NCBI GenBank assembly: GCA_023253795.1
Contig: JALRFG010000005.1
Coordinates: forward strand, 1-32,440
DNA: 32,440 nucleotides
Origin: Methylocystis sp.
Lineage (GTDB): Bacteria > Pseudomonadota > Alphaproteobacteria > Rhizobiales > Beijerinckiaceae
Reading direction: 5' to 3'
Below are positions 27,484 to 31,661 of this stretch, piece after piece (positions within the stretch are counted from its first letter, which is position 1; each line of letters begins with the position of its first letter). Below the pieces are notes generated by a model. That model was not told the DNA's origin and did no database searches. It saw only the letters and a program-made list of their open reading frames with translations. A program made the position numbers and the translations under genes.

Positions 27484-27603
27484 GTCGCCGGCGAAGCGTC
27501 ACCCGCGCCGGTCCCTGCGTTGTCATGTCTGTCGCCCTTTGCCCCGCGCCCCCGCGTCTGTATTGTCCGGGCGAGGCGGGGCCAGAGACGCGCGCAGCAG
27601 GGC

Positions 27604-28599
27604 ATGACGGAAAAAAGCACCATTTGTCTGATCGGACCGAAAGCGAGCGGCAAATCCTCGCTGCTCGCGTCATTGACGGAATGTGTGGCGCAGGGCGCAT
27701 TTGGTTATTCGCCGCGCCTGCGGCCGGCGTTGCAGCCTGTGACCGAGGGCGATTTTCGCGCAGCGGCGACCGAGATCCGCCCCGCCGATTTTCTGGCTCA
27801 TGAGGAAGGCGATTACGAACGCCTGAAACGCGATTTCGCGCTGGGCGGCGTCGCCACCGATACGCTCGACACCTATGAATATTATTTCCGCCTCACGGTG
27901 AACGGCGAGGCGCCGCCGGCGATCGTCACGCCCGGACCATGGCTGCTGGAGATCGTCGACTCTGCCGGCGAAATCGCCGTGCCGCCGGATGGCGCAGAGA
28001 TTCCGATCCTCAACGATGTGAAAACCAAGCTGGCGCGGCAATTGCTGGCGAGCGAGGCGGTGGTGCTGGTGCTGCCGCTGGTGCGGCTGGAGGATTCCGC
28101 CTGGATCGGCGCCTTGACGCGTTTCATCGATCGTCTTGCGCTGGCGCCGGATAAAAAACTGCGACGCCTCGTTGTGGTGTTTTCGCAATATGAGCGTCTG
28201 TTCGTGCGTCTCGGACCGAGCGCCTTCACCTACGCCTGCGATCCGGCGGTGGCGTGGCATGTGCTGCGCAAATCCCTGCGCGCCGCGCAATGGCTGGAGC
28301 GTTTGCGCGCGCTGGAGACGGGAGATGGCGGCGCCAGCGTGCGCTTCACCGTCGCTTCTTCCTATGGCTTCACCAAGCGGTTTCAGAACCCCAATATCGA
28401 TCCGCATCAGCCCGGCGAACGTCGCTTTCGTCGCGCCAGCCTTGAGGAAGCGCGCGCCAGCAACGAATATTGGCGCCCCTTCCTGACCGCCGAGCCGTTT
28501 TTATATGCGGCGCTCGGACTGGATAGCGCCTTCACCTTCTCCTTCGCGCAACTCGACGCCCGCGCGCCCGAAAAACCCGCCGCGTCAATCCTCGCTTAA
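27604..28599 (+). CDS. P-loop GTPase-like protein of unknown function (possible DO-GTPase/TRAFAC type)
   Basis: MTEKSTICLIGPKASGKSSLLASL Walker A; WLLEIVDSAGE (DxxG-like switch II); VVVFSQYERL at the base-recognition position in place of NKxD. Confidence 0.65.
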   Translation: MTEKSTICLIGPKASGKSSLLASLTECVAQGAFGYSPRLRPALQPVTEGDFRAAATEIRPADFLAHEEGDYERLKRDFALGGVATDTLDTYEYYFRLTVNGEAPPAIVTPGPWLLEIVDSAGEIAVPPDGAEIPILNDVKTKLARQLLASEAVVLVLPLVRLEDSAWIGALTRFIDRLALAPDKKLRRLVVVFSQYERLFVRLGPSAFTYACDPAVAWHVLRKSLRAAQWLERLRALETGDGGASVRFTVASSYGFTKRFQNPNIDPHQPGERRFRRASLEEARASNEYWRPFLTAEPFLYAALGLDSAFTFSFAQLDARAPEKPAASILA

Positions 28600-28640
28600 A
28601 GTCTGGCGGCTAGAGTTCGCCCGTCGTTCCCAACCGACGG

Positions 28641-29447
28641 ATGCGCAAAGTCGTGAGCACAGACAATCCGCCAGACGCCGAGGCGTCGATCGCCTTCCGG
28701 CGCTTGCATTATGGCAAGCTCGCGGACGCCGTCACCGGCGTTGTGCCGCCGAGCGAGGGCTATCGCGTCACCCGCCGTACGATGGATCTCGATCCTGAAC
28801 TTGAAGGGCGTCTGTCGCCGGCGCGATTGATCGGACGCCGCCGCTTTGAACTTGATGTGGTGGCGCCGCCGGCGCGTGGTCTGGGGTGTTTCGTCGCCCG
28901 GATGGCGTCCGCCGATGCGATGGCGATGCTGCGCGCCCGTTTTCGTCCCGAGGATGGCGAAAACGGCGGCGCGCGCCTGCATCATCAATCGTCGGTCTGG
29001 GTCGCCGCCGCCGAGGATTGGCGGCGCTTTCCCGCCGCCTGTCTCAGCATTGCGGCGCGCCAGTTGCGCGCCGATCCCGATCCTGTCGATGAGGCCGAAA
29101 CAACCCGCCTCGCTGAAGCGCCAACGCGCTGGCGTTTTCGCTGGATCACGCCGGATCAAGCGGGGTCTGTTCTGGCGCGCGCGTCCTGGGGGCGCGCCAT
29201 TCTTGAGCATTTCACGACTGCGTTAGAATCGAACGATGACGCGCCGCTTACTTTTGGCTCGAGTGATTTCGCCAGCGAAAATGATTTTCTGGCGGCTGTC
29301 GGCTTCGCCCTGCTATATCTGCCGGCGAGCTATCCGCGTTGGGACGAGATCAGCGTTGTTTGCGGTCTTGAGCATCCGCTGCCAGGCGTATGTCTGCGCT
29401 ATGTCAGTAATGTTGCGACAGATGCGGCTTTGTCCGCCGCCGCCTGA
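28641..29447 (+). CDS. Conserved-looking protein of unknown function, probable partner of the preceding GTPase
   Basis: Complete 268-aa ORF, same strand, 41 bp after the GTPase; IAFRRLHYGKLADAVTG...EGYRVTRRTMDLDPELEGRL start resembles GTPase-associated (GAP1-N) type domains (weak, from memory). Confidence 0.6.
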   Translation: MRKVVSTDNPPDAEASIAFRRLHYGKLADAVTGVVPPSEGYRVTRRTMDLDPELEGRLSPARLIGRRRFELDVVAPPARGLGCFVARMASADAMAMLRARFRPEDGENGGARLHHQSSVWVAAAEDWRRFPAACLSIAARQLRADPDPVDEAETTRLAEAPTRWRFRWITPDQAGSVLARASWGRAILEHFTTALESNDDAPLTFGSSDFASENDFLAAVGFALLYLPASYPRWDEISVVCGLEHPLPGVCLRYVSNVATDAALSAAA

Positions 29448-29456
29448 CGGAAAAAA

Positions 29457-31661
29457 CTAGCCGCCTTCCATACCGGCGTCAGCCGGGGCCGCTTCTGCAA
29501 GATAGCGCTCCAGCGCCGACGGACGCCGCCGACGTGTGCGCGCGGCGATCGGATCAGCGTAAAAAGCGCGCGGTCCCACTCCGTCGCCGCCGCCTTCCAG
29601 CGCATAGCGCAGCGCACGCGCGCTGCGCGGCTTGAGCGCCGCATGCAGACGCGATTCGATCTGCGCGATAGTGACGTTGTCGACGACATAGGCGCCCTTG
29701 CGGTCGACATGCGCAATCTCGTCGCGCACCAGCCGATTGAGGATCGCGGTCAGATTTTCGCGCACCGCCGATGGCAATGTCGTAATTGTTTGCGCGCCGA
29801 GATCGATTTCGCTCATGTCGCCGGGCATGGGCCGCGCGACGCGCAGCAGCGCTTTCATGGCGCGAATATCGACCGGCTCGTCCTCGTCGTCCGTCAAATC
29901 GAGTGGAGCCATGAACTGGCGTCGCTCGCGTGATTCAAAACCGCGTTTGAAAATCTCCGACAGGAATTTCATGATGAACACAAAAGCGTCCTGCGCCATG
30001 GCGACGCAGATCGCCATCGTCGAATCCGGCGTGAAACTCCAGAAGGCTTCACGCGCCAGTTCAAACTTGTTGCGCTCCGATGAGTGCGCGCGCAGAAAAT
30101 CGTCGCTCTTTTTCAAATAGCCGCGTACGTCCGCGTCGCTCAGTCCGAGCGCCTTGGCGGCGACGACGCAGCCATCAATCACTGTCTTCGCTGTGTTGAA
30201 TCCTTCTGCGGCGGCGTTTTTGTCGGACGCCGGCGCAGCGCGGATTTTGCTGACGATGGCGTTCAATTGATCGCGCAGTCCCGCCTCAACGCCGCATTTT
30301 TTCTCATAGGCGGCCCGCGCGGCGATGGCGTCGTCGTGCGCCGAAAGAAGGTCGCGGGCTTCGCCCTGCGGTTCGCAGGCGAAATCACGTGCAATGGCGG
30401 CGGGCGCGGCGTTGGCCTGTCGGGCTGCGGCGAGAATCGGTTCGCAGAGCGGTTTAGCCGCGCGCACGCGCGCCCATGACGGATCGACGCGCAGTTGATC
30501 GCGCAGGGCGATGAGTTCGCGCAGATTGGCGTCGAGATCGGGCGCCGCTTCCAGTTTTGCGGCGGGGCGGCCGGGGAGGGCGTCGGCCGCCTCAGCCTTC
30601 TGTTTCAGCGTGATCAATGCAGCGGCGAGCGTATCGCGCTTTTTCAGCGCATTGGCGCGTTCGTTCGAAGGGCCGGAGAGCGTGCGGCGAATGACGGCCA
30701 GACGTTGCAGCGCCTCCTGCGCCTTGGCGCGATGGGTGTGGCAATTGGGACCACAGGCCGCGCCCTGATTGTCGAGGCCATGTTCGGCGTCGACGGCGAG
30801 TTGCTCCTCTTGCCGCGCCGTCGCGGCGAGCTGATCCATCTCGTCCTGTTTGGATTTGATGATCGCGTCGAAGGCGGCGGCGCTTTTTTCGAGCGCCGCA
30901 ATATCTGCGCGCGCTTCCTCCATCTGTCGCGCCGCCGTCCGGGCCGCCTCCAGTTCGACGGCGGCCTGTCGCGCCGCCTGCGCGAGAACGGCGCGCTGCG
31001 CTTCCTGATTTTTGCGAATCGTTTCCCGCAGCGCCGGCCCGGCCTGCCGGGCCGAATCGATCAGCCCGTCGAGGCTGTCCAGATAGGCCTTGAAGGTCGG
31101 CGTCGCGACGATTCGGGCCGAAGCCGCCTCCTGGGCGGCGGCGATCTGCTTGCTCGCCGGCAGCATCACCTCGGCGGCCAGCTCGTTGGGCTGCAACTCT
31201 GCGACGATCTTGCGCGAGGAAAGTTTGAATATGTTATTGTAATAATAGGTAAAAGAGAAAAAGGCCGAGATCGAGAAGACAAAGGTGAAGACCAGGGCGG
31301 TCACCAGCGTCTTGATGATCATCCGCTCCCGCGCCATGCGCCGATGGGCGATCAGCGCGGCGAGATCGGCGCCCAGCGACCAGGAGGTCGAGGCCAGCAT
31401 GATCAGAATCGCCGAGGTGGCGACCAGCGTGCCGGCGACGCCGACCAGGTCGTCCGGCTCCTTTTGCATGATGTCGATCATGCCGGAGGCGGTCGTGTAG
31501 AACACCCAGGCGAGCACGGGCAGCGCCACCGCCATGCCGACCCGGCCGAGATCGATCTGGCCCGCCCAGAGATGCCGCAGCGGCTTCATCATTTTATTTA
31601 ACATATTGTTTTTTATTGGCTCTGCCGTTTCGGGAGCGGCGGGCGTCGGCGCAGAAGTCAT
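29457..31661 (-). CDS. Large membrane coiled-coil protein (734 aa), unknown function
   Basis: Three N-terminal TM segments, roughly 400-aa Ala/Glu/Gln/Arg-rich coiled coil with several Cys, fourth hydrophobic segment (DSTMAICVAMAQDAFVFIMKFLSEIF), C-terminal soluble domain. Confidence 0.75.
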   Translation of the reverse strand: MTSAPTPAAPETAEPIKNNMLNKMMKPLRHLWAGQIDLGRVGMAVALPVLAWVFYTTASGMIDIMQKEPDDLVGVAGTLVATSAILIMLASTSWSLGADLAALIAHRRMARERMIIKTLVTALVFTFVFSISAFFSFTYYYNNIFKLSSRKIVAELQPNELAAEVMLPASKQIAAAQEAASARIVATPTFKAYLDSLDGLIDSARQAGPALRETIRKNQEAQRAVLAQAARQAAVELEAARTAARQMEEARADIAALEKSAAAFDAIIKSKQDEMDQLAATARQEEQLAVDAEHGLDNQGAACGPNCHTHRAKAQEALQRLAVIRRTLSGPSNERANALKKRDTLAAALITLKQKAEAADALPGRPAAKLEAAPDLDANLRELIALRDQLRVDPSWARVRAAKPLCEPILAAARQANAAPAAIARDFACEPQGEARDLLSAHDDAIAARAAYEKKCGVEAGLRDQLNAIVSKIRAAPASDKNAAAEGFNTAKTVIDGCVVAAKALGLSDADVRGYLKKSDDFLRAHSSERNKFELAREAFWSFTPDSTMAICVAMAQDAFVFIMKFLSEIFKRGFESRERRQFMAPLDLTDDEDEPVDIRAMKALLRVARPMPGDMSEIDLGAQTITTLPSAVRENLTAILNRLVRDEIAHVDRKGAYVVDNVTIAQIESRLHAALKPRSARALRYALEGGGDGVGPRAFYADPIAARTRRRRPSALERYLAEAAPADAGMEGG

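Follow-up and report, generated by a model that had tools for sequence, protein, structure and literature searches.

Three adjacent genes in a 32,440-nucleotide stretch of a Methylocystis sp. genome (GenBank contig JALRFG010000005.1, positions 1 to 32,440; contig C270 in our set and hereafter the window) encode a P-loop GTPase-like protein (G), a GAP1-N2-like partner (B) and a membrane protein (D), and these form one functional module. A fourth component, C, is mostly encoded elsewhere in the genome. We assign a probability of about 0.5 to the reading that G, B and D, together with the unlinked C, constitute one membrane-associated switch system controlling the cell envelope, by way of peptidoglycan or membrane assembly. 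No model reached its cut-off in Pfam and NCBIfam scans of G, B and D, and an open-access literature search returned no paper describing this gene set.

The gene set and its fourth component

The components in the genome of the window (2.06 Mb, 82% complete) are as follows.

27604..28599, + strand: G, P-loop GTPase (TRAFAC-like, putative switch), 331 aa; from motifs, homologues and fold model
28641..29447, + strand: B, GAP1-N2-like partner, 268 aa; from core motif, homologues and profile comparison
29457..31661, - strand: D, predicted four-transmembrane protein with periplasmic coiled coil, 734 aa; from homologues and topology prediction
G000:C303:5517-7478: C of the window's own genome; from profile search

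G and B are separated by 41 bp, the stop codons of the convergent B and D genes lie 9 bp apart, and the set is flanked by prmA, which adjoins G, and hpnH, which adjoins D. The ATG at 27604 is conserved as the start of G, and an in-frame TTG at 27520 has no homologue support. An earlier sequence-only reading of the window had placed the three open reading frames (ORFs) at these positions and strands, with this gap between the convergent pair, and all were found as it claimed. They are real genes, given that homologues occur throughout the genus and that the ratios of nonsynonymous to synonymous substitution (dN/dS, 0.06-0.31) indicate purifying selection.

Searches of 37 same-genus genomes detected G in 35, D in 35 and B in 31, and the two genomes lacking both G and D have completeness values of 59% and 66%. 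Within the genus the module genes are single-copy and syntenic, and they are retained in genomes of 1.4-2.1 Mb. In G008 (2.1 Mb, 98% complete), as in the smaller related genomes G014 and G019, G, C and D have been retained and B was not detected; these small genomes (loci L056, L065, L100 and L101) belong to the same genus, have no PmoA match and are possibly non-methanotrophic reduced relatives. A PmoA homologue is encoded in the window's own genome, in line with a methanotroph. Searches of 11 genomes representing five further genera of the family did not detect the module. Neither G nor B turned up in a sample of 24 genomes that belong to the order but not to this family, four of which encode a distant D-like protein of ~1100 aa. 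Homologues of G in named records all derive from Methylocystis, Methylosinus, other Methylocystaceae or Alphaproteobacteria.

The linkage of the genes varies, with G-B-D in Methylocystis, C-G in four Methylosinus-like genomes and D-C-G-B in the distant genomes G291 and G550. It is these independent clusters, together with co-occurrence, that carry the argument for a functional link. In the Methylosinus-like loci (L046, L047, L048 and L057), a soluble protein of ~670-690 aa that starts with MWxxxxDxFWDGxR is encoded directly upstream of G, overlapping it by 4 bp (ATGA) in L057. This linkage predicted an unlinked partner in Methylocystis, which was then found: a profile built from the four Methylosinus-like proteins detected C in 24 of the 24 same-genus genomes searched and in none of the 14 further families sampled across the order. 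Most of the Methylocystis genomes examined have C on its own among housekeeping genes, unlinked to the rest of the module. C is thus the fourth, mostly unlinked component of the module. The C proteins of Methylocystis and Methylosinus (L096:5517-7499 and others) end in a short hydrophobic tail, KPKGFFQRLFG or GLLATMRNFF, which could be an amphipathic membrane anchor.

Fold, family and topology of G, B and D

Walker A of G, GPKASGKSS (residues 11-19; family form GPxxxGKS), and DSAGE (residues 119-123), within a Walker B of IVDSAGE, are both present where the sequence-only reading had noted them. Family members share hhhhDxxG at Walker B, followed by glutamate in most; D-x-x-G-E is present in the window, L044, L054 and L075, the glutamate is lost in L046, L047 and L057, and L056 has aspartate. 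At the G4 position, where N/TKxD would be expected, G has SQYE, conforming to a family pattern of S-x-Y/F-E/D. An AlphaFold model of G is weak (mean predicted local distance difference test (pLDDT) 53.8, predicted template-modelling score 0.60); all 27 Foldseek matches of this model in the PDB with E<0.001 were TRAFAC GTPases or G-protein complexes (probability 0.97-1.00), including EF2, EF-Tu, G-alpha, mitofusin and a bacterial dynamin. As modelled, G belongs to the TRAFAC GTPase fold class, which bears out its earlier description as GTPase-like, and because of this fold GTP is its likely substrate. The same reading had pointed to the DO-GTPase family, and here G fell short: PF19993 (DO-GTPase2) matched the window's G at a best E of 0.11 and the L075 counterpart at 0.012, over the P-loop region only and below the 27-bit cut-off. 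A PF19993 search of Alphaproteobacteria yielded as its only match an unrelated true DO-GTPase in G365.

B carries the core motif RARFRPEDGExGxGRxHQQSxxW. PF20013 (GAP1-N2) matched its homologue in L005 at 21.4 bits (E 2.7e-4, model positions 4-128 of 139), just under the cut-off of 24, and weak matches were obtained for 6 of 20 B homologues, the window's B not among them; other Pfam families each matched just one of the 20. No Pfam match to GAP1-M or GAP1-C was obtained for any of the 20 homologues, and B is only 260-330 aa long. A PF20013 search of 249 genomes of the phylum gave no match. These results suggest that B is a divergent relative of GAP1-N2 lying just below the Pfam cut-off, in keeping with the earlier guess of a GAP1-N-like partner. 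No PDB entry matched the structure model A2 (pLDDT 64.6) significantly, and its top hit, a DENN-domain guanine nucleotide exchange factor (E 0.016, root-mean-square deviation 14.9), was not used as evidence.

D was previously described as a membrane protein with four transmembrane (TM) segments and a long extracytoplasmic coiled coil, and we likewise observed four hydrophobic segments (about 36-54, 72-90, 119-137 and 549-567) with a long helical stretch between the third and fourth. The predicted layout is three TM segments, a periplasmic coiled coil, TM4 and a cytoplasmic C-terminal domain. The predicted periplasmic part contains a four-cysteine signature (C406, C429, C456 and C498) as well as C303/C307, and the near-constant spacing of the four cysteines (23/27/42 in the window, 22/26/42 in L054 and 26/26/41 in L075) supports homology of D across the distant loci. 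Like D, DUF4407-like and other TM coiled-coil proteins have a long coiled coil bordered by TM segments; D differs from these in lacking a DUF4407 match and in having the four-cysteine periplasmic signature and the cytoplasmic C-terminal domain. D-like proteins of ~1100 aa, which share the four-cysteine pattern and have additional TM segments, are encoded at L063:297-3599 and L064:6814-10176, near ispG, with no GTPase gene within either stretch.

A nine-gene cluster in distant relatives

Beyond the genus, samples drawn from the order, the class and the phylum yielded few G homologues (G291, G146, G270, G550 and G781), and the G781 match and the first-look matches in G146 and G270 cover the P-loop only. 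In G146 (L055:7146-11489), a 434-aa relative of G is divergent from a gene for a 973-aa protein, which may be a relative of C, and neither B nor D was seen in that stretch. In G291 (L054) and G550 (L075), D, C (on the opposite strand), G and B occur in the same order. When the components were compared with the distant loci by profile-profile alignment (hhalign) alongside 32 negative-control ORFs, the expected counterparts ranked top for each component. E-values for the two counterparts were 2.8e-67 and 2.3e-24 for G, 7e-6 and 1.7e-4 for B, and 0.008 and 0.067 for C; for D they were 1.8e-4 (L075) and 0.034 (L054), behind the D-like proteins of L063 (7e-13) and L064 (1e-10). Distant B counterparts were detected at 1.9e-8. 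Conversely, profiles built from just the two distant G or the two distant B sequences had neighbouring genes, G (1.6e-17) and B (1e-3), as their sole significant matches in 2.0 Mb of Methylocystis rosea (M. rosea).

In both genomes these genes belong to a larger operon-like cluster.

L112:5453-16001 + L054:331-10751: nine-gene cluster of G291
L113:8229-17501 + L075:843-11128: nine-gene cluster of G550

The gene order is the same at both loci: an HSP70/actin-like protein, a 1-TM protein, a ~500-aa protein, a transpeptidase, a SEDS-like protein, D, C, G and B. The first of these (~1150 aa) has two D-h-G-A-S motifs, on which its putative assignment is based; searching PDB sequences with it gave no match. 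The penicillin-binding transpeptidase (943-972 aa) has STFK, SSN and KTGT motifs and passes the Pfam cut-off (E 1.8e-8). The polytopic protein (1054-1106 aa) has no Pfam match, and its profile aligns to Escherichia coli FtsW/RodA in register at QPxE (E 0.001 in a single comparison), making SEDS kinship likely, short of proof. As in the SEDS-class B penicillin-binding protein synthases (RodA-PBP2 and FtsW-FtsI), a transpeptidase with three catalytic motifs is thus encoded beside a SEDS-like polytopic protein; unlike the canonical pairs, the distant-cluster proteins are far larger, the SEDS-like one is without a Pfam match, and the pair is encoded together with an HSP70/actin-like ATPase and with the G/B/C/D module. 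Genes for a ParB/methyltransferase-like protein and a terminase large subunit follow the G550 cluster (L075:13307-16437), suggesting that a prophage or gene-transfer-agent region adjoins it.

Proposed function and rival explanations

The closest described kind is that of the DO-GTPase/GAP1-N2 systems (Kaur et al. 2020, eLife 9:e52696, PMC7159879), predicted conflict systems that have GAP1-N2 as their constant component. Membrane association and HSP70-like partners are both known among the described systems, and the main carrier phyla as listed exclude Alphaproteobacteria. The module shares with these a TRAFAC P-loop GTPase gene directly followed by a GAP1-N-like gene (in the window, the Methylocystis loci, L054 and L075), a membrane component, the Walker B form D-x-x-G-E in most G members and, in the distant full clusters, an HSP70-like gene. 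It differs in that G falls under the DO-GTPase2 cut-off and has neither N/TKxD nor zinc ribbons, that B is short and matches GAP1-N2 over its N-terminal ~125 aa alone, and that D and C are constant across the genus, whereas effectors are variable in the described systems. An FNIII scan of G, B, C, D, the SEDS-like protein and the C-terminal part of the transpeptidase detected none, the HSP-like, 1-TM and ~500-aa proteins lying outside the scan. Since a DO-GTPase2 match, GAP1-M/C, variable effectors and, in the proteins scanned, FNIII all failed to appear, we regard the module as a divergent relative of this kind and do not file it as a member.

In the mechanism that we infer, GTP hydrolysis by G, all interactions, the direction of signalling and the envelope output included, D would span the inner membrane and hold the system there, and its periplasmic coiled coil, stabilised by disulphides, would sense or scaffold the envelope. 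B, C and the cytoplasmic C-terminal domain of D would set or read the nucleotide state of G. The output would be envelope assembly. In the distant full operon this would fall to a dedicated pair, the transpeptidase and the SEDS-like protein, together with the HSP70/actin-like ATPase; in Methylocystis, where the switch half alone was seen, it presumably acts on other envelope machinery. The envelope reading gains weight because peptidoglycan-synthase-like genes sit beside the module in G291 and G550, and with it so does the envelope alternative that the sequence-only reading had offered. That reading had taken a hint from the flanking hopanoid gene hpnH: the adjacency of hpnH to D is real, and as a functional link it does not hold up, being inherited synteny only.

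Several observations weigh against envelope control by the module. The GTP specificity of G is uncertain, as G has no guanine-specificity motif N/TKxD and Methylosinus-like members have lost the glutamate of Walker B. Homology of the distant C proteins to Methylocystis C is suggested rather than proven, given a best hhalign E of 0.008, and a profile from the distant-locus C proteins found no C in Methylocystis. A search covering 2.0 of the 3.55 Mb that make up the main contig of M. rosea found no homologue of the transpeptidase, SEDS-like or HSP70-like proteins, so that an envelope output in Methylocystis is extrapolated. As a control, the same two-sequence profiles recover G and B and miss C and D; this negative is accordingly only partly informative, because such profiles can miss fast-evolving members. 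Finally, the adjacency of G, B and D inside Methylocystis can partly be inherited prmA-hpnH synteny, since rearrangements have left G beside prmA and D beside hpnH.

Taken to its extreme, this last point would make the locus three unrelated genes kept together merely by their neighbours, an explanation that is largely refuted: the same families cluster in distant genomes amid quite different surroundings, and C, predicted from linkage, was then present in every genome tested. The functional link between the three genes that was first proposed from the window is therefore strengthened, by genus-wide co-occurrence as well as by the recurring clusters. The main rival is a conflict system (anti-phage or self-recognition) of the DO-GTPase/GAP1 type, as the sequence-only reading had suggested from the gene layout, in which D would be a membrane effector or sensor killing or arresting the cell once G is triggered. 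The resemblance of B to GAP1-N2, the membrane association and HSP70-like partners of the described systems, and the phage-like genes adjoining the G550 cluster are all consistent with such a role. We nevertheless consider it unlikely, as the module is near-universal and single-copy in the genus, is kept in reduced genomes, has a constant membrane component and no variable effector, and evolves with dN/dS far below 1; plasmid and phage collections contained no homologues of G, D or the distant-locus proteins, and PADLOC gave no defence match (best E 0.04-0.13, to coiled-coil or P-loop regions only). Such universality, together with purifying selection and persistence in reduced genomes, points instead to a house function.

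Less probable still is a system that builds or holds the intracytoplasmic membranes of type II methanotrophs. Its occurrence throughout Methylocystis/Methylosinus-like genomes and not in the 11 same-family genomes searched from other genera would fit such a role, and a GTPase with an integral membrane scaffold would suit membrane shaping. However, the carriers of G homologues G291, G146 and G550 are without PmoA, two of them (G291 and G550) with the full set, and the three reduced genomes keep G, C and D yet also lack PmoA.

Returning to envelope control, we tentatively propose that a nine-gene, GTPase-controlled cell-wall synthase, with an oversized class B-type transpeptidase and an oversized SEDS-like protein, may exist in Alphaproteobacteria, and that type II methanotrophs may have turned its switch half (G, C, D and usually B) into a near-universal genus core steering another envelope machine. 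GAP1/GTPase systems, so far predicted solely as conflict machines, are now linked to a cell-wall synthase context, and the same link ties them to a gene set that is near-universal and slow to evolve in a methanotroph genus of environmental importance. Four families without a database name also gain a common assignment.

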